Origin: a virus
Virus record (IMG/VR): IMGVR_UViG_3300036820_000027
Location: 1-46,966 of that record
Direction: 5' to 3' (one strand)
DNA: 46,966 nt
Positions 9,255-46,002 of the stretch are shown one piece after another; within the stretch, counting starts at the first letter, position 1; each line of letters starts with the position of its first letter. The translations under genes were made by a program, and so were the position numbers. Under the pieces are notes generated by a model, which ran no database searches, was not told the DNA's origin, and saw only the letters and a list, made by a program, of their open reading frames with translations.

Positions 9255-9896
9255 ATGCGGTTTTCGTTTGATAGCGGAGTCGATCTGGGCAAGAAATTGC
9301 CTGATTTTGCTGAGTTGGTTGTCAAGAACGAGCCGATGCTATTCAATTGTTCCGTCGAAGCATCCCGCTCCCTTGGCGGCCCCATTACGAACGCGTTCCT
9401 CGATGCTTTGGGCGTTTGGGGAACTGAAGGCGTGGTGGACACGCGTGTTCACATGCTGATGCCAGGTTGGTATTCGTGCATTCCCGGCTGGCACCACGAT
9501 GATGTACCACGATCCCGAGAAGACGGACAACCGAACTATGTAACTCCAGAGTACCGAGCGGAGCACGTGATGTGTCTGATTAACGGCGATATTTGCCCTA
9601 CGCAGTTTGCCGTGGGGCGCTGTGAAATGCCAGAGGTTGCGCTGGGAGGCACCGTTTACGGAGTTTGGAACGACGAAGTAGAAATACAAATCAAGAAAAG
9701 AAACCTAGCGCGCTTCACTGCCCCATCAAATCAGCTTGTATTTTTCAATTCAGAAAGTTTCCATCGCGGGACAATGGCTGTGCGCAGCGGATGGCGGTGG
9801 TTTGGGCGATTGACTACTGGCACGGGACGCAAGGCGACAAATGAGCTGCGCAAACAGGTGCAGGTATACCTGCCTCAACCGACACAGGGATGGTAA
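9255..9896 (+). CDS. Possible 2OG-Fe(II) oxygenase-like protein (213 aa)
   Basis: ATG at 9255 follows AAGGGGGG; an ATG at 9204 is possible but has no good site. Residues PGWHHDDVPR give His80-x-Asp82, and NSESFHRGTMAVRSGWRWFG gives His170 followed by Arg177, the spacing expected for the iron and 2-oxoglutarate ligands of a double-stranded beta-helix oxygenase. The strands between (HVMCLINGD, VFFNSE) fit that fold. A conserved phage family, but the activity is inferred from motifs only. It lies close to the Dam and radical SAM genes. Confidence 0.55.
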   Translation: MRFSFDSGVDLGKKLPDFAELVVKNEPMLFNCSVEASRSLGGPITNAFLDALGVWGTEGVVDTRVHMLMPGWYSCIPGWHHDDVPRSREDGQPNYVTPEYRAEHVMCLINGDICPTQFAVGRCEMPEVALGGTVYGVWNDEVEIQIKKRNLARFTAPSNQLVFFNSESFHRGTMAVRSGWRWFGRLTTGTGRKATNELRKQVQVYLPQPTQGW

Positions 9897-9912
9897 CGGC
9901 CTGACGCACGTG

Positions 9913-9925
9913 TGGCGCTAACCGG
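9913..9925 (+). repeat. 13-bp intergenic repeat, copy 2
   Basis: Second exact copy of TGGCGCTAACCGG, in the leader of the gene at 9953. The copies bracket the oxygenase-like gene, so they may be the scar of a cassette insertion at this place. Confidence 0.4.
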
Positions 9926-9952
9926 CAGCGGAGTTGCTGCGGAGGAAATGAC

Positions 9953-10207
9953 ATGCACGGAACTGGATACAACGAAGCACAGAGAAATCAAGATGACAAT
10001 AGGGCGTGTCCTGCGCCGAACCCGAGTGGTGCCTACTACGGCGAGAGCCCTGTAACCACAAAGGAAGCCGGTTTGCGGGACCTTCTGTATCAACGTATCA
10101 ATCGAGCGCAGAACGATACGGAAAAGCTCGCCAAGGCTATCCGCATCCTCAAAGCTCATCCTGAGTTTGAAGACCTGCTCTGGCTGATTCGGAGCGGACT
10201 GGTTTAG
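9953..10207 (+). CDS. Hypothetical protein (84 aa)
   Basis: ATG at 9953 is preceded by CGGAGG at eight bases. The first 35 residues are polar and probably disordered. The rest is helical (LRDLLYQRINRAQNDTEKLA, then KAIRILKAHPEFEDLLWLI). A helix ending in FEDLLWLIRSGLV recalls small phage proteins of unknown function. It is followed by a 138-base gap with possible RNA structure. Confidence 0.6.
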   Translation: MHGTGYNEAQRNQDDNRACPAPNPSGAYYGESPVTTKEAGLRDLLYQRINRAQNDTEKLAKAIRILKAHPEFEDLLWLIRSGLV

Positions 10208-14631: not shown

Positions 14632-14843
14632 CGCCTCACCTTGCAGACTGCCCATTCGGAGCGGCGAAGAAATCTCTTCTTCAAACAGATCCCAGGTCCA
14701 GGGGGGATCGGCTGATATGTGAAGTGAAACCAGCAAGGATCGGGACCGCCTTCGAGCGCCACAGTCACGTCGTGAACCTTTTGCTCGGGTGTCCGGGAGC
14801 AAGGACGGGAGAGAAGGGCGAGCAGAACAACGTGCGCGATCAT
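14628..14843 (-). CDS. Small exported or membrane-anchored protein in the lysis cassette (71 aa)
   Basis: ATG at 14843 overlaps the endolysin stop; an ATG four codons upstream is possible. The N terminus, MIAHVVLLALLSRPCS, is a short hydrophobic stretch, possibly an uncleaved anchor or signal. The rest is polar with several Cys and a Pro-rich middle, ending basic. It could be a spanin-like component, as it sits where Rz or Rz1 would be, but no homology to them is visible. Confidence 0.5.
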   Translation of the reverse strand: MIAHVVLLALLSRPCSRTPEQKVHDVTVALEGGPDPCWFHFTYQPIPPGPGICLKKRFLRRSEWAVCKVRR

Positions 14844-15292
14844 ACCGACCCCCATAGCGCCTGTTCAGCCTCGCGGCGCGCGAGCAATCCCTGATTTGGC
14901 AAACCGTTCACAATATCCCAGTGCTTGAACTGAAGCCCCGCCCCGGCATAGTCTCCCGAATTGAGCAATCTAAGCAAAGTTGAAGACTTGAGCCTGCCTG
15001 CACCCAGATTGAACGTGAAGTCCACCAGCGCGTCGTACTGGCCTTGGGTCAAGGGAACATTGACCAGCGAATCGATTTCTTTACAAACAGCCTGAAGGTC
15101 GTTGTCCAAAGCACTATCTGCCTGTGCCAAGGTCCAGGTCATGCCTTCTTTCACGTCCGGGCCGTGATGACCGTAGCCAATCGACCACCCATCCACGTCC
15201 CAGTAAGCTTTTGCTGAGAATCCTTCGCTGCGCTCAATCAAAGCAGTGCAGGAGGGAGACGGGAGAAGAGTCAGGTTAGCTGCGTTCGGCAT
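14840..15292 (-). CDS. Endolysin, GH24 phage lysozyme (150 aa)
   Basis: Lambda/T4-type lysozyme fold. IERSEGFSAKAYWDVDGWSIGYGHH carries, in two short pieces, the catalytic Glu23 (SEGF), Asp32 nine residues later and IGYGH; the usual Thr is Ser37 and the loop is one residue shorter than in T4 lysozyme. LTQGQYDALVDFTFNLG and ARREAEQALW are the conserved family motifs. It cleaves peptidoglycan glycan strands. No signal or SAR anchor is seen, so it should need a holin for release. Confidence 0.9.
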   Translation of the reverse strand: MPNAANLTLLPSPSCTALIERSEGFSAKAYWDVDGWSIGYGHHGPDVKEGMTWTLAQADSALDNDLQAVCKEIDSLVNVPLTQGQYDALVDFTFNLGAGRLKSSTLLRLLNSGDYAGAGLQFKHWDIVNGLPNQGLLARREAEQALWGSV

Positions 15293-16014: not shown

Positions 16015-16548
16015 CTACCGAACGCGAACGATACGCCCCACGACTTGTACCGGAACCGCCATTGAAGCAAGCTGCTGGCTTGGCGTAGGAGCATTCAACA
16101 ACGCTGGCTTTTCCAGGCTAGCCGACTGCGCGGCATTGCCCGCAGGGATGCCGGGAGCCAACGGTACTTGCGGGCTGGTCACAGGCGCGCTAGGCGCGGA
16201 AGGCGGAGAGTTCTCCGCATTCCAAACTGTAGTCACGACAGCGCAGACGGTCTCGCCAGTGGTATTGTCCTGAGTAAAAGTCAGGGCAGCCACGGGCGCG
16301 CCGGGGTTCAGTTGCTTGTAATTCGCGCTGGTCGCTGGATCGCAGGTCGTGCCGGAAATGGTTTCAACGCTGAGGATGTAGCTGCATGGAAATTGCCCCG
16401 CAGCCGTCCCGCAGCCGGCAAAGGCTGGCGTGCTGGAGGGCGCTGTCCAGGTCCAGACTGTGTTATAGCCTTTGGTTGGTGTCGGAGCTTGCGCACAGCC
16501 AGCGGTTGCCAGTGTGATAAAAGCGAGTGCTGCGAAAATCCTTTTCAT
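16015..16548 (-). CDS. Exported Fn3-like protein with signal peptide (177 aa)
   Basis: ATG at 16548 with AAAGGAAAG upstream; TTG at 16563 is less likely. The start MKRIFAALAFITLATAGCA is a signal sequence, with TAGC a near-match to a lipobox; cleavage after GCAQA is the alternative. The mature part resembles a fibronectin-III or Ig-like module (TVWTWTAPSSTP, CSYILSVETI, TVCAVVTTVWNAENSP) with paired Cys, followed by a Pro/Ala-rich tail. Fifth and last of the exported late proteins. Confidence 0.65.
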   Translation of the reverse strand: MKRIFAALAFITLATAGCAQAPTPTKGYNTVWTWTAPSSTPAFAGCGTAAGQFPCSYILSVETISGTTCDPATSANYKQLNPGAPVAALTFTQDNTTGETVCAVVTTVWNAENSPPSAPSAPVTSPQVPLAPGIPAGNAAQSASLEKPALLNAPTPSQQLASMAVPVQVVGRIVRVR

Positions 16549-16559
16549 GGTCTTTCCTT

Positions 16560-18671
16560 TCAATTGAAAGATGCTCCAGATATGGTGGCCCCGCTGTAAC
16601 TGCTGCTTGTCAATCCGCTATAGCAGGTGCTTGCATTAAAACCTAACATGCTCCCGGTTCCGTCCGGCACTCCGGCCATTGAATTTAAGTAACAATCCTG
16701 CGCCGGGATCGAAGTCACATGCGAGGCCCAGGCTGTCACCAAACTTCCGCTCGTACACTGACCTGAAGACGTTGCGATTGCTCCTGGATAAGTTCCTCCA
16801 GAGCATGTCCCAATATTCCCTGAAGACACATCCGGCCCCACTGGAGGCCACGCCTTGCCCGAAGTCCACCACGACGGGGTTGAGTTGTAGTAAAGCGAGG
16901 CGGGAAGAGTCTGGGCGAGACCGGAAAAATAGGTCGAAGTGAAATTTGCATTCACAAACGCCACTGCCGCCGGGGATGCTTCGGTCGCATTCCATTGCGT
17001 TGCTGCATTGACCGTGTCGTAGTTGCCCCAGCGCATCAGCGTAGGTCTGACGACAGAATCGCATCCCGGCGTCCCGCAGGTTCCTGAGGTCGTTTCGCCA
17101 GCTCCAGACCAGCCCAGCGAATAAATGCTGACTGACGCCTTGGTCTGATTTGTCCCGCCAGAGGAAGACGTTGCGTAGGACTCGTAAGTGGTGTGGTATC
17201 CGGTTTGTCCTAAGACGTTCCCAATCAGATTGTGGACGCGCGAGAAACTTCGATCAATGAATGGAGACGTGTTGTAGATCGGCCCGCTCGATTGATGCTG
17301 CCAGCCCGGAGCGAGATTTCTAAAGAACGTTTCGGTGTTCGACGATCCCCATGTATCGTCCGTCGCCACGTTGAGAATAAAGTTGCCTTCGTACAGGTCC
17401 ATATCGTTTCCGGCGTTGTGCGAAGCGTAGGACGATTGAAGGTAATTGGAGTTCGTGTAAACTCCGCCGATCATCAGGTTGTAATCGACCACCGTTCCTG
17501 AAGTGTTGCCAGTGATTAAAGGACTTGTTAGCTGCTGGAAGATGTTGTTCTCTACCAGCTCGGCTGAGGTCTGTTCTGGCTCATAACCGTAACTTTCGGT
17601 CGAATGACCCTGCGACTGGAAGAAATAGCTGTCACGGATGACCGTGCCGAAAGAGAGATTGGTCTGCACATGCGCGCGTTCAGCGTCGTAGGACGACACG
17701 TCTTTAACCCAACAGTCGAAACAACCGGCTACCGAGATGTTGAACAAATTGATCGCCGAGCCATCGAGATAGACATTCTCCAATCCCTCGTCTTGAGTCT
17801 GCCCGACCCACCACGCGCCCGGAGACCGTCCCGACTGAATGTTATTGAAGTAGACTCCAGGCGAAATTCCCACCGTGTACGGTCCTGTGCCCGACCCGCT
17901 GATTGAGGTCACTGTCGCGAGTTGTTTCTGCGAATAGGTGTAGGTAATGCCGCTTAAAGCGATGCGGCGTCCGTCGAAGTTTGAAGGCCCTCCGTCGTTC
18001 AACGTGCAAGCTCCTCCGCCCGCATCGGAGGATGTGGACGAGTCGCACATATAAACTCCGCCATTGTCCGCCAGGTCGTTGGCTTGGTCGAGGATGATGA
18101 TCGTTCCTACTGCAAGACCGTTTGATGTTGGAGTTCCGCCGCAGGTGTTGAGCGTGATCGACGTTGTGCCTTGGGAATAACCCGCTGTCCACAAACATTG
18201 ATGAGTCCCGCTCGGAGGAAGAACAGGGGAACTGCCAGCATAGTAAACCGAGCCGTTCATGCAAATGCCTGCTGAGAGTCCGGTGCATCCTGCCGAAGTT
18301 TGAATCAACAAGCACGTGCTTCCCGCAGCGCAGGTGTTCCCCGGCGCGCTCGAACCTGCTCCCCGAAGAACCATCTTCCCTTGCGTCGGGAAAGTAATGC
18401 CGTTCACGTACCACGTTCCGGCTGGCAAACTGACTACATTGTGCGTAGCGTCACAGGAAACCAGAGCAGTATGGATTGAAGTCGCGTTTGCAGCGGCATT
18501 TCCCGAGCCGGTTAAGAGACTGGGCTGTGTCGCACACGGGACTGTATACGCAGGAATAGAAAACCCCGCACTGGTCCAGTCCACCGCCCTTGAAGGGTCG
18601 AGGAACGTTGACCAGTTCTGCGCATAGGCTGGCAGCGCAAACAGAAAAAGGATGAGACTAATTCGGCGCAA
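16560..18671 (-). CDS. Exported beta-helix tailspike-like protein (703 aa)
   Basis: TTG at 18671 with a GGGGGG stretch five bases before it. The N terminus, MRRISLILFLFALPAYAQ, is a clear Sec signal with an A-Q end. The mature part has a pectate-lyase-like parallel beta-helix character: VVSLPAGTWYVNGITFP, GKMVLRGAG, then repeated short Asn/Gly/Ser turns (LVENNIFQQLTSPL, VVDYNLMIGG). Many Cys occur as CxxC-like pairs. It is probably a receptor-binding or polysaccharide-degrading protein. The export signal is unexpected in a phage tail protein. Confidence 0.7.
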   Translation of the reverse strand: MRRISLILFLFALPAYAQNWSTFLDPSRAVDWTSAGFSIPAYTVPCATQPSLLTGSGNAAANATSIHTALVSCDATHNVVSLPAGTWYVNGITFPTQGKMVLRGAGSSAPGNTCAAGSTCLLIQTSAGCTGLSAGICMNGSVYYAGSSPVLPPSGTHQCLWTAGYSQGTTSITLNTCGGTPTSNGLAVGTIIILDQANDLADNGGVYMCDSSTSSDAGGGACTLNDGGPSNFDGRRIALSGITYTYSQKQLATVTSISGSGTGPYTVGISPGVYFNNIQSGRSPGAWWVGQTQDEGLENVYLDGSAINLFNISVAGCFDCWVKDVSSYDAERAHVQTNLSFGTVIRDSYFFQSQGHSTESYGYEPEQTSAELVENNIFQQLTSPLITGNTSGTVVDYNLMIGGVYTNSNYLQSSYASHNAGNDMDLYEGNFILNVATDDTWGSSNTETFFRNLAPGWQHQSSGPIYNTSPFIDRSFSRVHNLIGNVLGQTGYHTTYESYATSSSGGTNQTKASVSIYSLGWSGAGETTSGTCGTPGCDSVVRPTLMRWGNYDTVNAATQWNATEASPAAVAFVNANFTSTYFSGLAQTLPASLYYNSTPSWWTSGKAWPPVGPDVSSGNIGTCSGGTYPGAIATSSGQCTSGSLVTAWASHVTSIPAQDCYLNSMAGVPDGTGSMLGFNASTCYSGLTSSSYSGATISGASFN

Positions 18672-20652
18672 ATGCCCCCCATGATCCGTAAGGGTCCCAG
18701 ACCAGTCCGCTGTACCAAATCGGATTTGTGAAAGAACACGATGACCACTTGCCGATGGTCACGGTCTGCGCAGAAGCGGGCGACCAGAAGGTGACTCCGG
18801 TTGCAACGGCTGAATGTGCCCCTTGTGACATCGTGACCGCAGTTCCGCTAACGGCGGTGATGTAAGTACCGGGTTCAATTGATCCATCTGTGCTGCCGAT
18901 AGGATCGCCGATGGCCGGTGTCCCGCTTGAGGGAACCACAATAGTCAAAGCTGTTGATCCTGCTGACGCGGTGCCGTTCGTCGCGGCGACCAGCGTTGTC
19001 GGCTTGGCTACAAAATTGACCGTTCCACTGACAATCGCTGTTGTGTTCTGCGAGAGCGTGATGGTGCAGGTGCTTGAGCAGGTGCCGGAGATCGCTTCAA
19101 CTGCCGTCAGGTAAGCAATTCCGGTTGTCGGATAAACAACGTTCCCGACTGCCGGGGTTCCCGTGGCGCTGGTGATGGTCAAAGAGGTTGAGCCGGAAGT
19201 TGCTGTACCAGTTCCACTGCCGCTGAATGTCGGGGTAGCGCAGAATGTCTGGCTAGTCGAAGAACACAGCACATCGTAGTTTGTCGAACCGACTTGCGAC
19301 CAAGTCGAACCGGACTTTGAATAAACGATGATCTGGTGGTACCTCTCGTTCACGCTGGCTAAATGAGCTTGCAGCCAATAGTCAGTGTCGAGAGACAGAC
19401 CGGTAAGAAGAGGCCCGGTCCCACTGTTGGCGTCTTCCATGTAGACCTGAAGATGGTTTGTCGTATCGTAATGAGCTTGTTCCGTCAAGGTTCCGGTAGT
19501 CGCGCCCGATCCCAATTGGGTCATGTCGCAGACGGTGGTGTTGGTTACGCCTGAAGACCCGGCACGGAAGAAATAGCTTAGCCACGCACTTTGACCTTGA
19601 TTACCGGAACGGTCGGAAAAGCTGAAGTCTGACGCTCCCCCCGAACCAAGAGTCCCGGAAAAGAAAATGCTTCCTCCGGCATCTCCAAAGGTATGCGGAA
19701 ACCCTTGCGCGATGATTCGCCCCGTGCCGGTGGGGTTGACTGAAGTGTCCCAGGTAGGCCCTGTACCGAGATTTGTCCATGGGGCGGCGGTCGTGTTTCC
19801 GTGCGTAGACCAAGCCGATCCGCTGTTCTGTGTGTTGAGAATAGTGGTCGTGATGGTCGCGCCGTTGGTTTGCGAAGACGCCGAGAATCCAAACATGCCG
19901 GTGATGGGGCGATAACCCGCTGGATTGCTCGCGTTCTCAACCGCGAATTGCGTGTCCACGTAGTTCACGGAAGCTGACGTGAAGGGGCAGTTCTCCGCCG
20001 TCGCTGTGGTCTGAATCATGTACTGAAAGTAGTGGGAAAAGGATTGCGTAACCGCCGTCAAAGTTCCCGACGGTGTGAATCCTGTGCCCGCTGTCGTTGT
20101 AGCTGCTGACGATCTGTCGAGCGCGCAGATGATAACTTCGCTTGCATTCGCCGGAGCTACTGCCGTGCCTGCTGTTGGGTTAGCGGCGCTGGTCGCTTGA
20201 GAAATCGTCGCCAGCCCATCCACTACGTCGCTGGTAGGAGTTCCTTTCCACGCCTGGCAAGCCAAACCTTCGCTGGCCCCGCCGTTGGTCGCGTTCATAT
20301 TCGGAGTAATCGATCCGCTGGCGGAATTAGCAAATGACGCCGAAATAACCCAGTTATTTGCGTTGGCCCCGTTGATGTTTCCATAGACCGTATCGTAGAC
20401 GCCATTGATCGGATCGGTGATGTATGCGTCTTCTGTTGAGAAGGTCGTTACGAAGCCCTCACAGGTGATCGTGTCTCCCGCTGTAACCGTCATAGCGGCA
20501 GAACAGGAGACCGTTTGGGTCGTGCCGTGCCCCGTGCATGAGGCGTCGAGCGTGATGGGCGTTACGGAGACGGAGAAAATCTTTCGATGCGGCCCGTTGA
20601 TCTGAGCTGAGAGCGGCAGCGCGATGAGAAGAAAAAGAAGGAGTCTCTTCAT
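18658..20652 (-). CDS. Exported lectin-like appendage protein (664 aa)
   Basis: ATG at 20652 is chosen because the frame from 20865 runs over the upstream gene. MKRLLLFLLIALPLSAQ is a signal peptide. The mature protein is beta-rich and Ser/Thr/Gly-heavy. There is a central part like a concanavalin/LamG module (SAWLSYFFRAG, HLQVYMEDANSG, TDYWLQAHLASVNERYHQ), then Ig-like repeats with Cys pairs (GTCSSTCTITLSQ). It may bind surface sugars. Its start overlaps the upstream stop (TGATG), so the two are coupled. Confidence 0.7.
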   Translation of the reverse strand: MKRLLLFLLIALPLSAQINGPHRKIFSVSVTPITLDASCTGHGTTQTVSCSAAMTVTAGDTITCEGFVTTFSTEDAYITDPINGVYDTVYGNINGANANNWVISASFANSASGSITPNMNATNGGASEGLACQAWKGTPTSDVVDGLATISQATSAANPTAGTAVAPANASEVIICALDRSSAATTTAGTGFTPSGTLTAVTQSFSHYFQYMIQTTATAENCPFTSASVNYVDTQFAVENASNPAGYRPITGMFGFSASSQTNGATITTTILNTQNSGSAWSTHGNTTAAPWTNLGTGPTWDTSVNPTGTGRIIAQGFPHTFGDAGGSIFFSGTLGSGGASDFSFSDRSGNQGQSAWLSYFFRAGSSGVTNTTVCDMTQLGSGATTGTLTEQAHYDTTNHLQVYMEDANSGTGPLLTGLSLDTDYWLQAHLASVNERYHQIIVYSKSGSTWSQVGSTNYDVLCSSTSQTFCATPTFSGSGTGTATSGSTSLTITSATGTPAVGNVVYPTTGIAYLTAVEAISGTCSSTCTITLSQNTTAIVSGTVNFVAKPTTLVAATNGTASAGSTALTIVVPSSGTPAIGDPIGSTDGSIEPGTYITAVSGTAVTMSQGAHSAVATGVTFWSPASAQTVTIGKWSSCSFTNPIWYSGLVWDPYGSWGAFAPN

Positions 20653-22394
20653 CAATAAGTCCCCGTGACCACAAACGTGGTCTGTTTCGCGGTGCCATCG
20701 GCTACGAACGTGAACTTGATGTAGTCCCCACTGGTTAGCGCGACGTTGGCGCTTTGCGTGCCAGCCGCGAAAGCTGTTGTGCAAGTGACTGCGCCGGTCA
20801 GCAGAGCGCCGAGCGTATTTCCCGCCGCATTCATCGTCGATGTAGTCCCACCATCGATGTAGCACTTCAGGCCGGTCAGCGTCACCGTCACGCCGGTTGT
20901 GTTGTAGCAGAACGATTGCAGGTAGGTCCCGGCTGGAACCGCATTCAATCCGTCTCCCAGACCCGTCTCACAGGACCATTTGCTGTACTGCGCTGCGAGT
21001 TGAGTTGCGGTGACAGAGTTGTTGTTAAGGTTTGCGCCGGGGATTCCAGTGATGTTCGTGCCTGTGCCACTGGACGGAGTGCCGAGCGCTCCACCGTTGA
21101 CCACAAACGCTCCCGCACTTCCTGTGTTGACGCCAAGAGCCGTCAAAACTCCTGTGCCCGTCGTGTTCGTTTGCGAGGCTTGGAAACCCGCCCCGGTCAT
21201 AATCGCGCCGCTGGTCAGAGAGGCCGCGCTGGTTACGCACGTCGCGCAGGCGATGGTTCCTGTGGTCGTGATTGTGCCGCCTGTGATGGGTCCTGTTGTG
21301 GCAATCGAAGTAACAGTACCAGACCCCGAACCTTGGCACCCTGTATTGGTTGCCGCGTTTGCGGCGGTGCAAATGTGAGAATACGCGCCGCCATTTTCGC
21401 TTACTTCTGCAAGTCCTGAAGTGCCAGAATCCGCGCCATAAACTACATTCGCCGCAATTCCAGATACTTGAGTTCCAGATGGAATGGTTATTCCATGGGT
21501 GGTACCCGCAATTGTTACTGGCCCTGGTAATCCTACTGCTCCAGTACTCGGATTGATAGTGAGTCCAGAAATAGTCGAAGGAGCCTGTGACCCAGAAGTG
21601 CTGGATGCAGCAAGAATGGAAAAAGATGAGTTGGTTGTGCTTGCAGCCGTCGTTACGGTAGCAGCGTTGCCGGTCGTGTTCTGGTTTAGCGTTGGCACAT
21701 CTGCGGACTGAATCGCGCCATCGACATAATCAGTTCCATTGTTCCTGAGGTAATGTCCAGCCGTGACCGCACCGCTGATGTCGAAACCGGTTGAGGCGAT
21801 CCACTTGGCTGAGGTCTGGTTTGCAGTCCACGTATTTGCGTGTGTGAGATTGAGCGAAGCAACCACCGCTCCCGTGGTAGGAGAAATTGTCAGTGTGCTA
21901 TCGGAATTGCTTACAGAGGATACGGCGCCCCCGCCAGCAGCGCACGACCCATCCCCCCTCAGAAATGTCGAAGAAGAGCAAGTCCCGGTCCAGAGAGCAA
22001 TGATGTCGGAAGACGCCGCAATCGAGGGTACCCCTGTCGTTGTGGTGATCTTCAAAACTCCAGTTGCCAAGCCGGATAAAATCGTCCCGTTTAGACCCTT
22101 GACGGTCGTAGCGCCTCCGGTCGAGGTACTTGTGGCATCGCCAGTCAGGGCGTTGAAAGTACCCGAGCCGCCGCCAAAACACGATGCGTCCGCAGGCACC
22201 CATTGTGCAGCCGAAGAGTTGTAGCAATAAAGCGCAATCGGTGTGGGAGTGAAGGAAACTGCTCCACTGCTGCTGCTGGTGGCCGCAGCAGCCCACGACG
22301 AACCGGTATAGGTGAAAGCCCCGCCAGCAAACGAAGGTGTGAACTGCGCCTGCGCCGCAACAGGAAACAACAATAGCCAGAGAAACTTTTTCAT
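20652..22394 (-). CDS. Exported tail-fibre-like protein (580 aa)
   Basis: ATG at 22394 with GGAAGG upstream; the longer frame from 22739 overlaps the next gene. MKKFLWLLLFPVAAQAQ is a signal peptide with an AQA-Q end. The body carries phrases typical of phage tail fibres: SSTFLRGDGSCA, TWTANQTSAKW, AGHYLRNNGTDYVDGAIQSA and LNQNTTGNAATVTTA, followed by a trimeric-fibre-like C-terminal region. This is the clearest case of a tail-fibre protein with an export signal. Coupled to the downstream gene by TGATG. Confidence 0.8.
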   Translation of the reverse strand: MKKFLWLLLFPVAAQAQFTPSFAGGAFTYTGSSWAAAATSSSSGAVSFTPTPIALYCYNSSAAQWVPADASCFGGGSGTFNALTGDATSTSTGGATTVKGLNGTILSGLATGVLKITTTTGVPSIAASSDIIALWTGTCSSSTFLRGDGSCAAGGGAVSSVSNSDSTLTISPTTGAVVASLNLTHANTWTANQTSAKWIASTGFDISGAVTAGHYLRNNGTDYVDGAIQSADVPTLNQNTTGNAATVTTAASTTNSSFSILAASSTSGSQAPSTISGLTINPSTGAVGLPGPVTIAGTTHGITIPSGTQVSGIAANVVYGADSGTSGLAEVSENGGAYSHICTAANAATNTGCQGSGSGTVTSIATTGPITGGTITTTGTIACATCVTSAASLTSGAIMTGAGFQASQTNTTGTGVLTALGVNTGSAGAFVVNGGALGTPSSGTGTNITGIPGANLNNNSVTATQLAAQYSKWSCETGLGDGLNAVPAGTYLQSFCYNTTGVTVTLTGLKCYIDGGTTSTMNAAGNTLGALLTGAVTCTTAFAAGTQSANVALTSGDYIKFTFVADGTAKQTTFVVTGTY

Positions 22395-22405
22395 CTCACA
22401 CCTTC

Positions 22406-24796
22406 CTAATTTGGCGTGCATACAATGCTCACCGTTCCCCCACTGGCCGTTGTTGCCACATGAGTGATCGTTACCGAATTCGTGCCCACGGCAGAGACGT
22501 ATCCGACTACCGTAGAAGCCGCCGCTGTCGCGTTCGTTGGAGAGAACGCGCAATGCGAAGAGGCTGTAGCTCCAGTCACCGTGAAGGCGTCTGAGGTTCC
22601 TGTTGTGTAGGTACCGCTGCCAGAGACGGCAATTTGGCTGGTGGTAACGTTGGCTCCGAATGACGGGCCGTCTACCCACTGCAGAGAAGCGTTGCATGTT
22701 GAAAAAGCTCTTTGGCCCGCAACCGGATTGGTCAACCATTCCGTAAGGCTTTCAGCAGGGCAAGAAGTTCCGGCAGTTGGAAGACTGGAGACTCGTTTTG
22801 CGTCGAAACCGTAATCCCAAGTCTGGACTTGCAGCCAGTTGACCGTAGCCGAAGCCGCTGCGGGACAGCCTGAAGTTGTCAGACAAACCGGGGCCGGAGT
22901 AACGATAATTCCGGGGCCAGTCAAGCCCGAACACCCGGAATAAGCCGAGTTCATCGCTACGCAAGTGACTTGTACAGTCGAGGTTCCTGTGCCCCCAGAA
23001 CCGGAGCTTGGAATGGCAAGCCAGTCGCCGATATGGACGCTCCCTGTCGGACCAGCCGGAATAAAAGCGGGAGTAAAATTAGTGATATTGGCGTTTGATC
23101 CATTGAGGACAAGAGTCCCTGTGGCAGTCACTTGTTCTGCCGATCCAAGAGACCCTCTTCCATCAGCAGGGCTGATTACAACCGTAATCGGACCCCCGGA
23201 AGTTGTGAAGTCAGTTTGCTTGTTGACTAACCAATCTCCGGCCTGCCGAAGAACTGTGTTGGCGGAACGCGAGGCTTTGGGGATTACATCGAGCAGCCAA
23301 TCTTCAAGACCGATCCCCTGAAATGCTTTGGGGCTCGCTCCAAAGGACCATAACGCTCCTTGTGCTTCAGAATCCGAACCGTATTCCTGTTGAGTCGTTC
23401 TGTTTTTGTAGAGCGCACTCATATCGATAACGTAGTTGCGGCCAAGAAACACTACCCCCACGTTTCCCGAATTTGTGCTGACAATCGGATGCGGATCGGT
23501 GAGATTGCCCGCCACATTGTAATTCTTGATGTTGATGATCGGCTGAATTGTAGCGGGGCTGACTTGATCGTTATTGAAAAAGAACCTGCCTTGATCGTTG
23601 TTTCCTGAAATGACTGTGGGAAGATTTTCCTCGATGCGCGCGGTGTCCACTTCAAACAATTGTCCCGGCCCGCAGGAATCGCAGAACAACTCACCCGCGC
23701 CATAATTGTTGGGCCGGATCGGGCTTCCGCTGCAAGACCCGACATAACCCTGCGTACAGAGGTACGTAGACACTGCTGTAGAAACATTGTTGTCCATCGT
23801 GTAATCGCGGAGCACAATAGGAAAGCCATCGGCAGTACTCGTGGACCAGAATTTCAGAAAGTACCCACCAAGAGCGTCTGTCCTGAAGTGAGTAAAGTAT
23901 CCATTCAGAATCTCACCAGGCGTGATCTGACTTCCCATCGTGATGCCGTCGCCATAGAAGTTCTGAATCTGGAAATTATCCAGAATCGCGCGCTCGTCTA
24001 TGATCTCCTGATTGGTAGTCGTCAGGTTCATAAAGTTCTGCGCCATGGTCGTAATGGTCGAACCGGGATTCACTCCCTCAAAGTGCATGTTCTCGAAACC
24101 GCCCGCAGACAGTCCCGGCCACTGCACCAGATAAGTGTTCGTTCCACCAGCACCGTTGTAGAAAATATGGCTCGATCCAGGGAACGCTCCACGCCAGAAG
24201 ACCTGAGAATTGTAGGTATTTGGGATTACCTCTTCATGCATCCGGTAATTGCCAGTAGGCCATATGGACGGAAGACAGCTTTGCACGCTGCTGAAGGTCG
24301 AACATGACCCGGGCAAGACTCCGTTCGAGTAAAGAGCGGATGCGTCAGCTACGCCGGCATTGTCCGCGCCATAATCTCTGACATTTGCTGCTCCAGTGCG
24401 CGTGGACTGCCCGTTCCGCTGGTTATCGACCATAGGATTGGCCTGGACTGGAGACCCGACTCCAGCGTTCGTGCAGTTATAGGGAATTGTGTCCGTACCT
24501 GAATAATTTTGCTCGATCAGGACCGACCCGCCGAAAGTGCATGCTTCGGTGTATGCAGTCAGGATTCCATTGTTTCCTGTATTCAGGATCGATGCTGACC
24601 ATACCGTGTTGAGGTTGGGTGCCGTCAGCGAGTGGCGCGACGGAGTTATCGTGATGCTGGAGTCAGCCTGAAGCGACGAGGCTGACGAATTGGCGAACTG
24701 CACCGCAAAGGCCGGGGGAGCGGGCGTTACCTGCGTCCAACGGATTTGCTGTGCTGCGCACGGCAAACAAAATAGAAAAATGAGAAGCTTTGTCAT
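22406..24796 (-). CDS. Exported tailspike with pectate-lyase-like fold (796 aa)
   Basis: ATG at 24796, overlapping the upstream stop as TGATG; a start at 24940 would overlap the adaptor gene. MTKLLIFLFCLPCAAQ is a signal peptide. Near residue 140 there is NVRDYGADNAGVADASALY, the entry motif of Pectate_lyase_3 tailspikes. Long Asn/Gly-rich beta-helix sequence and a Cys-containing C-terminal Ig-like region (SHCAFSP...VSIVCTPN) follow. It probably recognises or cleaves host surface polysaccharide. Confidence 0.75.
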   Translation of the reverse strand: MTKLLIFLFCLPCAAQQIRWTQVTPAPPAFAVQFANSSASSLQADSSITITPSRHSLTAPNLNTVWSASILNTGNNGILTAYTEACTFGGSVLIEQNYSGTDTIPYNCTNAGVGSPVQANPMVDNQRNGQSTRTGAANVRDYGADNAGVADASALYSNGVLPGSCSTFSSVQSCLPSIWPTGNYRMHEEVIPNTYNSQVFWRGAFPGSSHIFYNGAGGTNTYLVQWPGLSAGGFENMHFEGVNPGSTITTMAQNFMNLTTTNQEIIDERAILDNFQIQNFYGDGITMGSQITPGEILNGYFTHFRTDALGGYFLKFWSTSTADGFPIVLRDYTMDNNVSTAVSTYLCTQGYVGSCSGSPIRPNNYGAGELFCDSCGPGQLFEVDTARIEENLPTVISGNNDQGRFFFNNDQVSPATIQPIINIKNYNVAGNLTDPHPIVSTNSGNVGVVFLGRNYVIDMSALYKNRTTQQEYGSDSEAQGALWSFGASPKAFQGIGLEDWLLDVIPKASRSANTVLRQAGDWLVNKQTDFTTSGGPITVVISPADGRGSLGSAEQVTATGTLVLNGSNANITNFTPAFIPAGPTGSVHIGDWLAIPSSGSGGTGTSTVQVTCVAMNSAYSGCSGLTGPGIIVTPAPVCLTTSGCPAAASATVNWLQVQTWDYGFDAKRVSSLPTAGTSCPAESLTEWLTNPVAGQRAFSTCNASLQWVDGPSFGANVTTSQIAVSGSGTYTTGTSDAFTVTGATASSHCAFSPTNATAAASTVVGYVSAVGTNSVTITHVATTASGGTVSIVCTPN

Positions 24797-25350
24797 CAAT
24801 AAAACCCCTGTACGTACACAACGTCTGCTGGAGTGCTCCCAGAAGAGGGTTGCGGAGCGTTGGCGTATGTGATAGTCAAAGTTCCAGAAACCCAGGAGAC
24901 TGTGTAGCCCACCCCTACAACAAGAGGGAAATTCAGCCACACGATGACCTGAACCGGATTCTGCGGAACGGCAAACGTGAACACGGTGTTGCTGCCGTTG
25001 ATCGGGCCTGACGGCGTTCCAGAAAATGCCGTCAGGCCCGCTGAACCGCCGCCGGAATTGCTCGGGGCCTGATCTTTCAGAACGACTGGATTCTCCCCGA
25101 ATAGCGGATGCCAGATGACCACCGTATAAAGAGTAGTGTCGTCCATATAGGCATCACTATGCCCGAACCCGTCCGTCAAAACAGGTTGAATTATGGGCGT
25201 ATCGCCGGTGAGGTCTGTATACACCGTCGCCAGGGGAGAAGGCGGATTTACATTGGTGGTCGCTGGTTGCATGCACCAATAGACCTGCGCTCCAGACAAA
25301 GCTCTCCCCAGAGCATCCGACACCCACCGATCATCTCTAGCAATCGCCAT
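24796..25350 (-). CDS. Tail-fibre adaptor / fibre N-terminal module (184 aa)
   Basis: ATG at 25350. The N-terminal half (VSDALGRALSGAQVYWCMQP, PLATVYTDLTGDTPI, QPVLTDGFGHSDAYM, LYTVVIWH) is the anchor module typical of phage fibre bases. The C-terminal half (GSNTVFTFAVPQNPVQVIVW, GYTVSWVSGTLTITYANAP) is a short beta module often repeated in fibres. It has no signal peptide, unlike the next five proteins, and probably links the fibres to the tail. Confidence 0.75.
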   Translation of the reverse strand: MAIARDDRWVSDALGRALSGAQVYWCMQPATTNVNPPSPLATVYTDLTGDTPIIQPVLTDGFGHSDAYMDDTTLYTVVIWHPLFGENPVVLKDQAPSNSGGGSAGLTAFSGTPSGPINGSNTVFTFAVPQNPVQVIVWLNFPLVVGVGYTVSWVSGTLTITYANAPQPSSGSTPADVVYVQGFY

Positions 25351-25352
25351 GG

Positions 25353-26039
25353 TTATCCGATCTTTGCAATGATGCTGGGACTGGTTCCCCCCGTGACGCT
25401 CGACACGTTGATCCGGTACACATATCCTCGCTGCAGAGTCACTTGGTTCAGCGGTCCGGCTGTCTGGACCCCGCCCGCAACAGTGGCAATCCCCGTCCCG
25501 TCTACGTTCGTGTATTCGGCGTCAATGTCTCTGATAGCTGCCTGCAAATGGACCGTCGCTGTCGTTGGAAGGCTTGGAAAAGTCACTGAGACCGGCACGG
25601 TAAACTGGCTGTCTCCCTGCGGAGCTTGAATCGCCACCGGTTGGGAAGAGCTGTTGACAAGCGCCTCAGAGGTCTCGCCAGGTTCGGTAAGGAAAGCTCC
25701 CGCATCAGCCGTTGCGCTCTGATTCGATCCCGTGAGGGCATAAGAGATCGTTCCCGCTCCGGTAGACCCAGTGATGTTTACCGCCGTGATGATGGCGCGC
25801 TTCACATTGAAAAGGCCGGTCTGCTGAGAGGTCGCCCAGATCGTAATCAGGTCTCCAACAAGAGGCAGAGGCCCGGTCGTAATCGTGACCGTGACCGTCG
25901 CAACGTTGGTCGCTATGGCGGTCTGCGTGACGTAGCCTTTGGTGTTGCCCTGAAGCATGTTGAGACCGCCGAACATATAGGCAGGTACGCCCTTCTGTAG
26001 CAGTTGCGGTCTCAGTGACGGTGAATTGTAGGCTGGCAT
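25353..26039 (-). CDS. Beta-rich virion protein (228 aa)
   Basis: ATG at 26039 with AAGGAGC upstream. Thr/Val-rich strands (TNVATVTVTITTGPLPLVGD, TVPVSVTFPSLPTTATVHL) suggest an Ig-like or jelly-roll fold. It resembles the protein of 33564-34445 in style (short N-terminal polar part, long TVTxT strands), which may mean a common structural role such as a head or tail decoration. No signal peptide. Exact function unknown. Confidence 0.65.
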   Translation of the reverse strand: MPAYNSPSLRPQLLQKGVPAYMFGGLNMLQGNTKGYVTQTAIATNVATVTVTITTGPLPLVGDLITIWATSQQTGLFNVKRAIITAVNITGSTGAGTISYALTGSNQSATADAGAFLTEPGETSEALVNSSSQPVAIQAPQGDSQFTVPVSVTFPSLPTTATVHLQAAIRDIDAEYTNVDGTGIATVAGGVQTAGPLNQVTLQRGYVYRINVSSVTGGTSPSIIAKIG

Positions 26040-43988: not shown

Positions 43989-45572
43989 TCAATCCCAATA
44001 CGATTTAGGCTGCTTCGCCTTCATCCGCCTCTCTGTCTCGGCCAGTTTAGCGAAATGCAACGCCATCGGGTCGGTAATCGCGGCCTGCTCCTTAACAACC
44101 TTCTCCTCTCGCGTCTCAGCCATCGGATTCGCTCCGAAAGTCATTGCCAGCATGTCTCCGCAATCCGGTGAATCGACGCCGCGATCCCGCATATCCTCCT
44201 TGCGCTCAAGCTGAATCACGCTCTTGGGGTTATCTGTGTCGAAGCGTGGACCCGTCAGGTCGCGCTCCAGCTCCGGGTCGTCATCGATCGATCCGTATTC
44301 CAGCCATGCCTTGGTAAGGCCCCATATCTCGGCCCTGCGGTTGAAGTACATGAACGGATCGCAAGCCTTATACCCCCCGTGGAACTCCTGGACGCTAAAC
44401 CAAGGATGATCCGCGAACCACCTGGCTAAAGCTGTTTCGGGCCACTCTCTGCGCGGTTGATTAGGTTTGGGCAGCAGCATGCGCAAGTGATCTGCCACAG
44501 CGCCCCCGATGCCATCACCGTCAATAACGATGCAGCGGGGGTTTTCTTCCATAATCCTCAGCGCAATCCTGCCTGACTGGTCGGGAATCGACAAACCACG
44601 CCATTTGTCCAGAATGTGTGCTACTTGTCCTTGCCGCGTTCCCACAACCGTCTGATTGAAGCCAGAACGGGCAATGTCGGCAGACATGATCTTGTAGCCG
44701 GACGGAACACATTGACGCTTACGCGCTGCGGATACTAAGTCCTGCGGAATGAACTGTAAACCGCCAGCACGCGGGAACTCGCCCCTGACACGGACGCGCA
44801 CAAAGTCTGAATCCTCGCCGAAGTCATCGATCCAGCGCGCAATTTGCTCTTTGTTTGTGCCAGGGACTGTCCTTGAATCGATGTGCCGAGTCACCCAGCG
44901 ATGACTCTGCGCACCGAAGCAGGTTGCAAACGGTGTGTCGTTCTGTGTTGGGTTGCCGAAGACGAGAAAGATGATCTCGGTATCCTCGTCGGTAAGGGCA
45001 CCTTCCGCCACTTCCCAAACAGGCTTAGGAATTGCCGAGCCTTCGTCGAAGACCAGAAGAATCCGCTTGCGCTTATTGTGAAGTCCCTGAAACGCTTCGG
45101 TGTTGTTCTCGGACCAGGTTTCCCTATCGAGACGCCAAGTATCTTCGTGGCCCTTTTCCCGCGATGTAATCCGTGTCGCTGAGGTTTTCCACCAATCCCG
45201 ATTGATAGACAGGCCAAACCATTTCAACACTTCAGGCCAGGTCTTCGTGGTGAGCTGATCTTCCGTATTGGCCGTTACAAGAGCGCGGCAATCATCGCAC
45301 GTGCTCATGGCCCAGTCGGAAATAATCGCAATCAGCGCGGTTTTGCCGATTCCATGACCAGAAGCGACAGCAATCTTTAACGGCTGGTGGCAAAACGGAG
45401 AGTTGAGGTGCTTGCCGATGACAGAGAGAATGTCCTCTTGCCATTCCTTAATCGATTCGTTCTCAAGTTGCCCCGGTTCTCCCCACGGGTAGGCATAACG
45501 CGCAAAACCCAATGGATCACGCACATACTGCGCAATATCTTCTACCAGCTCACTTTGCGCGTTTGCGGGCAT
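43989..45572 (-). CDS. terL: Terminase large subunit, TerL (527 aa)
   Basis: ATG at 45572 (a longer frame opens at 45638 inside the small-subunit gene). Walker A is VASGHGIGKTALI (residues 69-81), and Walker B is ILLVFDEGSA with Asp176-Glu177. A coupling motif FGNPT follows near residue 206. The C-terminal nuclease carries SADIARSG (Asp299), VIDGDGIGG (Asp351) and a late PDCGDMLA, the acidic set of the RNase-H-like nuclease. It cuts and pumps genomic DNA into the procapsid. Confidence 0.9.
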   Translation of the reverse strand: MPANAQSELVEDIAQYVRDPLGFARYAYPWGEPGQLENESIKEWQEDILSVIGKHLNSPFCHQPLKIAVASGHGIGKTALIAIISDWAMSTCDDCRALVTANTEDQLTTKTWPEVLKWFGLSINRDWWKTSATRITSREKGHEDTWRLDRETWSENNTEAFQGLHNKRKRILLVFDEGSAIPKPVWEVAEGALTDEDTEIIFLVFGNPTQNDTPFATCFGAQSHRWVTRHIDSRTVPGTNKEQIARWIDDFGEDSDFVRVRVRGEFPRAGGLQFIPQDLVSAARKRQCVPSGYKIMSADIARSGFNQTVVGTRQGQVAHILDKWRGLSIPDQSGRIALRIMEENPRCIVIDGDGIGGAVADHLRMLLPKPNQPRREWPETALARWFADHPWFSVQEFHGGYKACDPFMYFNRRAEIWGLTKAWLEYGSIDDDPELERDLTGPRFDTDNPKSVIQLERKEDMRDRGVDSPDCGDMLAMTFGANPMAETREEKVVKEQAAITDPMALHFAKLAETERRMKAKQPKSYWD

Positions 45573-46002
45573 TTGCGATTCGATTTGCCAGGACCAAAGG
45601 CGCCTCTGGGTCGCCGGCGATGATCTGGCGATCCGCAAGAGCTTTATTCAGTTGGCCGGCGCGCTTGAAATATGCCTGAACAATCAGCTTACTGCGCTCC
45701 ACATTGTCAGAAATGGTGATTTCTTCGCCCTTTGGCGTGACTTTGCTCACTTGTCCCATGCGAGCGGTGCGAGATTCAACTAGAGCTTTATCAACGAGAT
45801 GTTCGGCTTGAACTTCCCTCGCGCGTGCGGATTTCTGTCTAAATTCCTCATTAACTTCGCGCCACCGATACCAGGTTCTTTGCGAGATTGGATTGCCAAT
45901 GGAATCAAGCACTTCCTCTAGGGAAGAATCAGAATTAGCCAGACTCTCGCATATTCTGTCGGCGAGCACAGGATCAAATGGCTTGAGAGGGCCTGCTGGC
46001 AT
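45550..46002 (-). CDS. terS: Terminase small subunit, TerS (150 aa)
   Basis: ATG at 46002 with AAAGG eight bases upstream, directly after the TGA of the preceding frame. The N-terminal helix-turn-helix (DRICESLANSDSSLEEVLDS, SQRTWYRWREVNEEFRQKSA) is typical of phage small terminases; the middle is a charged helix; the C-terminal part (AYFKRAGQLNKALADRQIIA) is basic. It recognises viral DNA for packaging and recruits TerL, whose gene it overlaps by 23 bases. Confidence 0.85.
   Translation of the reverse strand: MPAGPLKPFDPVLADRICESLANSDSSLEEVLDSIGNPISQRTWYRWREVNEEFRQKSARAREVQAEHLVDKALVESRTARMGQVSKVTPKGEEITISDNVERSKLIVQAYFKRAGQLNKALADRQIIAGDPEAPLVLANRIANARKRAK

Follow-up and report, generated by a model that had tools for sequence, protein, structure and literature searches.

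Results

Five genes with predicted signal peptides next to the virion genes

The stretch of DNA analyzed in this study, here called the window, is a 46,966-bp virus record from IMG/VR. Terminase genes at 43989-46002 are followed by a leftward block of virion genes. Between this block and the lysis genes lies a minus-strand group made up of gp228, an adaptor, and five consecutive genes, f1 to f5, which run from 24796 to 16015 and whose open reading frames were all confirmed. The features are as follows.

25353..26039, minus strand: gp228, a conserved beta-rich protein without a signal, which opens the module in relatives
24796..25350, minus strand: adaptor without a signal, with a predicted fold consistent with the P22-tailspike head-binding-domain (HBD) type
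22406..24796, minus strand: f1, predicted first exported fibre, 796 aa; signal peptide at 24752-24796; mature start QQIRW; 16 Cys in the mature protein
20652..22394, minus strand: f2, predicted exported fibre, 580 aa; signal peptide MKKFLWLLLFPVAAQA; 12 Cys in the mature protein
18658..20652, minus strand: f3, predicted exported fibre-type protein, 664 aa; signal peptide MKRLLLFLLIALPLSA; 12 Cys in the mature protein
16560..18671, minus strand: f4, predicted exported beta-helix protein, 703 aa; signal peptide MRRISLILFLFALPAYA; TTG start; 18 Cys
16015..16548, minus strand: f5, small protein, putatively exported or lipoprotein-like, 177 aa; signal ending in TAG before C; last of the run
14840..15292, minus strand: endolysin (phage lysozyme), encoded directly behind the fibre run and one of the lysis genes on which the proposed mechanism depends; Pfam PF00959, E 1.7e-39

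The start codon of f1 lies within the adaptor stop codon (TGATG at 24796) and that of f3 within the f2 stop codon at 20652; f4, with its TTG start, overlaps f3 by 14 bp, and f2 and f5 each begin after an 11-bp gap. A promoter and terminator scan showed no enrichment.

Signal peptides were called by an explicit rule based on the charge of the n-region, the h-region, and the residues at -3 and -1. The rule was widened to permit Cys at -3, and f1, which has Cys at that position, passes only in this form. The predicted cleavage sites follow MTKLLIFLFCLPCAA before QQ in f1, MKKFLWLLLFPVAAQA before QF in f2, MKRLLLFLLIALPLSA before QI in f3, and MRRISLILFLFALPAYA before QN in f4. The features of Sec signals cleaved by signal peptidase I (n-region charge, hydrophobic core, and small residues at -3 and -1) are canonical in f2, f3, and f4. 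The N terminus of f5, MKRIFAALAFITLATAG followed by CAQ, resembles a lipobox imperfectly, since its TAGC has T at -3 of the consensus [LVI][ASTVI][GAS]C; a similar small protein in a related phage (L137) has VAGC. A preliminary description of this DNA had proposed that the five consecutive products carry Sec signals and that the fibre adaptor just upstream has none, and both proposals were borne out: all five N termini are signal-like, that of f5 in the lipoprotein-like form, and the rule-based scan found no signal in the adaptor, gp228, or the upstream virion genes.

The signal peptides are conserved at the fibre locus of related phages

Relatives were gathered by scanning IMG/VR with the adaptor, gp228, a 1313-aa tail protein, and the 835-aa portal-position protein, which yielded dozens of related contigs. 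The architecture of signal plus fibre, which the preliminary description had suggested looking for in other phages, recurs among them. By the rule, a signal peptide begins the first large gene behind the adaptor/gp228 block in 20 of 29 representative metagenomic phages, and in 24 of 29 when four clear misses of the rule found by inspection (G007, L074, L082, and L115) are added. Of 173 other genes encoding 200 aa or more, only 4 have a signal (Fisher P 4e-17 against 20/29), and because of this low background rate, five signal-bearing genes in a row are not attributable to chance. The longest such runs in relatives also comprise five genes (L109 and L064). A separate search, starting from the f4 family, reached 31 viral loci, where members with a complete N terminus are nearly all signal bearing and mostly lie within runs of such genes. 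On one contig the f4 homologue adjoins tail-sheath genes (phrog_205), and therefore more than one morphotype is involved.

Gln occupies +1 in 34 of 48 predicted sites, residues at -3 and -1 are small, and n-regions are positively charged. A 104-kb contig (L148) carries the f1 body at 83% identity (612/736, residues 61-796) behind a different signal peptide, in which only 2 of 15 residues are identical. Judged from this pair of sequences, the signal diverges fast while its signal character is kept. A motif that seemed to offer a universal docking element directly after the first signal, [IV][ND]P..QI, occurs in 7 of 22 first fibres and is absent from the window, and was rejected as a general feature.

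Several small genes accompany the runs. A small signal-bearing or lipoprotein-like protein is often the last of the run before the lysis genes (16015-16548 in the window, L110:14555-15100, L120:7317-7826, and L137:7941-8456); it may serve in exclusion or in the envelope. Other small lipoprotein-like proteins near the lysis region have a twin-arginine motif of the form RR-F-L/F (L065:10245-10751, L125:9817-10362, and L115:16104-16715) and are possibly Tat-exported lipoproteins. L109:19573-20301, directly after the exported run, encodes 242 aa with 37 Cys in CSGCSxC-type repeats. In L063, two exported fibre genes are separated by a methyltransferase-like gene (9401-10141) read from the other strand.

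Cysteine counts are even in the signal-bearing proteins

Exported proteins that use disulfides tend towards even numbers of cysteines. We counted cysteines in the mature, deduplicated signal-bearing proteins, first in an initial set and then in one enlarged with the f4-linked loci. Counts are even in 41 of 44 proteins of the first set and in 75 of 85 of the enlarged set (P 9e-14), and in 64 of the 69 with at least six cysteines; among signal-less genes of the same contigs the corresponding figures are 68/128 and, with at least six cysteines, 39/70. In the window, the mature proteins f1 to f5 contain 16, 12, 12, 18, and 4 cysteines, making 58 for f1 to f4 together, whereas from the adaptor to 29656 the counts in the six neighbouring tail genes are 1, 0, 0, 0, 0, and 0.

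The 18 cysteines of f4 form nine sequence-adjacent pairs. Across its family, Cys 159 and Cys 177 are both present in 8 and both absent in 6 of 14 informative sequences and are never split, and the pairs 46/73, 129/137, 209/222, and 660/683 are nearly always both present. Because even counts are found in the signal-bearing proteins and not in the signal-less ones, the disulfides would be formed outside the cytoplasm, which agrees with the folding in an oxidizing periplasm that the preliminary description had proposed from the richness in cysteine. Export with disulfide formation is thus, on the sequence evidence, very likely.

The same data bear on the view that the hydrophobic N termini anchor ordinary cytoplasmic fibres or serve as helices in their assembly, the outcome that would have undone the original proposal. 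Hydrophobic ends are indeed known from some structural proteins of phages, and export is predicted here from sequence. However, an anchor does not call for small residues at -3 and -1, Gln at +1, positive n-regions, or lipobox-type variants, nor for a segment that diverges rapidly while the adjoining body is conserved, nor for even cysteine counts in the signal-bearing proteins only. The cysteine parity and the AxA sites followed by Gln together make this view highly improbable.

The adaptor model resembles virion-binding domains, and the domain is sometimes fused to signal-bearing fibres

The predicted adaptor structure (pLDDT 75) matched virion-binding N-terminal domains of tailspikes and fibres in Foldseek, among them the P22 HBD (1lkt, probability 0.99), Pam1 (7eeq, probability 1.00), the Pan3 tail machine, and Sf6. 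Support is modest (best E 1.6e-3, with modest TM-scores), but matches of high probability are mostly to structures of this kind, and the model is consistent with a fold of the P22-tailspike HBD type. A sequence search of the PDB with the adaptor profile A3 gave no tailspike match up to E 10.

In two relatives the adaptor domain lies directly behind the signal peptide and in one protein with the fibre (L098, a 1440-aa fibre, and L110, 425 aa). The adaptor profile matches this domain at E about 2e-12, and profile-profile comparison gives E 5e-38, with one sequence shared by the two profiles. In L087 and L072 an N-terminal adaptor domain without a signal is fused to a longer protein, and in L103 and L104 a large signal-less protein occupies the fibre locus and there is no signal-bearing run. 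On L148, the f1 body is preceded by the signal peptide and a module 45% identical to a small stand-alone protein, itself without a signal, encoded just upstream. This module looks like an HBD, but its homology to the window adaptor is unsupported (hhalign probability 0.7%).

Other arrangements were seen at this locus. gp228 is duplicated in L101, L102, and L112, with the first copy before a large protein without a clear signal and the second before signal-bearing fibres; a lipoprotein-type start is possible for the first large protein of L112. On the 109-kb contig G009 (L072, 8322-15853), a cluster of glycosyltransferase-like and nucleotide-sugar-enzyme-like genes stands in place of exported fibres and directly follows two adaptor-domain genes.

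The bodies behind the predicted signals look fibre- and depolymerase-like

Pfam and PHROG scans of f1 to f5 gave zero significant matches, and the Pectate_lyase_3 assignment once suggested for f1 was not upheld, with no Pfam match at E up to 0.1. The f2 body contains the fibre repeats FLRGDGSCA and LNQNTTGNAATVTTA, and its ICTAANAATNTGC block is common to signal-bearing fibres of other phages. The AlphaFold model of f4 is a right-handed beta-helix (pTM 0.80, pLDDT 68) whose best Foldseek matches are capsule depolymerases (E 6e-10, with low TM-scores). By fold only, the model of f4 is tailspike-like, and to this extent the earlier reading of the bodies as tailspikes, fibres, and lectins stands, while the lectin label has no profile support. 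f4 has no N-terminal virion-attachment domain, and the family alignment begins at the mature N terminus. Among the other signal-bearing proteins, the bodies include GH54, kelch, chitobiase-C-terminal-like, and weak carbohydrate-binding matches. Together with the adaptor context, these bodies favour receptor-binding or depolymerase fibres over unrelated cargo. The GH54 alpha-L-arabinofuranosidase catalytic domain was seen in two signal-bearing proteins (L064:13037-14002 and L069:427-3630), in one of them alone and in the other within a fibre-type protein.

Homologues of f4 occur in 8 of 236 genomes searched from the class Verrucomicrobiae. In the two bacterial loci examined the relatives bear signal peptides, and one locus is of EPS type. 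On a contig of a Spartobacteria MAG (L149, 6785-8590), a signal-bearing f4 relative lies amid glycosyltransferase genes, a context that suggests an exopolysaccharide-related role for the family.

These homologues raise the question of whether the run consists of captured host secreted proteins, that is, moron or auxiliary metabolic genes whose signals were passively inherited. The bacterial f4 relatives, with a signal-bearing one in the EPS-type cluster, are what such an origin would leave. Yet the signals also precede phage-type modules such as the adaptor domain and fibre repeats, almost all genes of the run have one even where the bodies are unrelated, and the signals are kept at the tail-fibre locus in dozens of phages. 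We consider passive inheritance improbable.

Discussion

It is assumed that a tailed phage both makes its tail fibres and attaches them inside the cytoplasm. The group of genes described here points to a different route. Our preferred reading is that f1 to f5 are Sec-exported, disulfide-bonded fibres of the receptor-binding or depolymerase type, together with envelope proteins, that dock on virions at lysis, and we give it a probability of roughly 0.6. The signal peptides and their conservation, the cysteine pairing, the adaptor fold, the fibre-type bodies, and the covalent union of signal, adaptor domain, and fibre in relatives are drawn from sequence or statistics, and three further steps are inferred: cleavage, residence in the periplasm, and docking at lysis. 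The five proteins would be synthesized with cleavable Sec signal peptides and exported to the periplasm, where the signal would be removed, usually before Gln, and the mature fibres would fold with several intramolecular disulfides. The virion, carrying the P22-HBD-like adaptor and gp228, would meanwhile be assembled in the cytoplasm. Once the products of the lysis genes have breached inner membrane and wall, the exported fibres could meet the virion and dock onto it, which would make the final maturation step extracytoplasmic. Docking at this stage is feasible because, as is generally known, completed P22 particles that lack tails can take up tailspikes in vitro.

The main alternative is that the proteins are exported but never bound to the virion and instead act during infection as exopolysaccharide degraders, receptor decoys, or superinfection blockers bound to the cell surface. 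The GH54, kelch, weak carbohydrate-binding, and depolymerase-like matches would suit free enzymes, as would the bacterial f4 relatives with their EPS-type cluster, the several different bodies in each phage, and the lipoprotein-like last member. The adaptor, which has no signal in most of the phages, the window included, could also form a complete short spike by itself. However, the proteins that unite a signal peptide, an adaptor domain, and a fibre are ill suited to a free enzyme. Phages that lack signal-bearing fibres have a signal-less fibre or an adaptor-fused protein at the same locus, and no other receptor-binding candidate was recognized in the window. We regard this alternative as a real but rather unlikely one for the run as a whole, while some members of the f4 family may act free of the virion, given their bacterial homologues. 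Of the three explanations first offered (secreted decoys or polysaccharide degraders, envelope-displayed blockers of superinfection, and fibres attached after export or lysis), attachment after export or lysis is thus the best supported, by the L098 and L110 fusions and by L148, with the binding to the virion itself still a predicted step.

Several known systems share parts of this arrangement. The window adaptor fold resembles the HBD of P22-type tailspikes (gp9 and those of Sf6 and HK620), and the f4 body shares the right-handed beta-helix of depolymerase tailspikes such as KP34p57 and LKA1 gp49. Unlike f1 to f5, these tailspikes have no signal peptide, are cytoplasmic, and are not known to need disulfides, and in the window group a protein of its own usually supplies the virion-binding domain. 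The pIII and pVIII proteins of filamentous phages are Sec-exported virion proteins, and the receptor-binding pIII has disulfides; filamentous virions, however, assemble in the membrane by extrusion, whereas the window belongs to a tailed double-stranded DNA phage with terminase and lysis genes. Secreted beta-helix proteins of Verrucomicrobiae belong to the same family as f4 but do not adjoin phage tail genes. The Llp and Cor lipoproteins are phage products that go through the Sec pathway of the host. So do endolysins with signal peptides or SAR domains, such as Lys44 of fOg44, and Lom of lambda (PMC6116005, PMC12309495). The roles of all these proteins lie in lysis, the envelope, or exclusion rather than in fibres, and unlike the window they do not form runs of large proteins with paired cysteines. 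A literature search, weak in that it covered few subscription journals, did not find Sec-exported tail fibres, and its only precedents were of the endolysin and Lom type.

The relatives appear to lie among uncultured phages. A tblastn search of 50,697 phage records in INPHARED gave no match to the adaptor, the portal-position protein, gp228, the 1313-aa tail protein, a distant adaptor, the fused fibre, f4, or two other fibres. A plasmid search gave no matches, and a GTDB scan with the portal-position protein found no relatives. The GTDB scan with gp228 found one 4-kb contig (L111) binned in a Spartobacteria MAG, which is too weak a basis for assigning a Spartobacteria host.

If confirmed, the new element is that tailspike-type fibres are made by a secretory route. 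In a broader form of the proposal, to which we give an even chance, this route would be used by many uncultured tailed phages, which belong to more than one morphotype. Their receptor-binding fibres would pass through the secretory pathway of the host and acquire disulfides, and the virion would be completed at lysis and outside the cytoplasm, a dedicated adaptor marking the border between cytoplasm and periplasm. Should extracytoplasmic completion be shown, it would be a categorically new way of finishing a phage particle, in which part of the virion matures only when particles meet the contents of the periplasm. The fibres could then bear disulfides, giving stability in harsh environments. 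Such a route would also offer an explanation for signal-bearing sugar-degrading enzymes in environmental viral contigs, which may be read as auxiliary metabolic genes, and it would mean that the annotation practice of taking a signal peptide to indicate a secreted, nonvirion protein can mislead for receptor-binding proteins.
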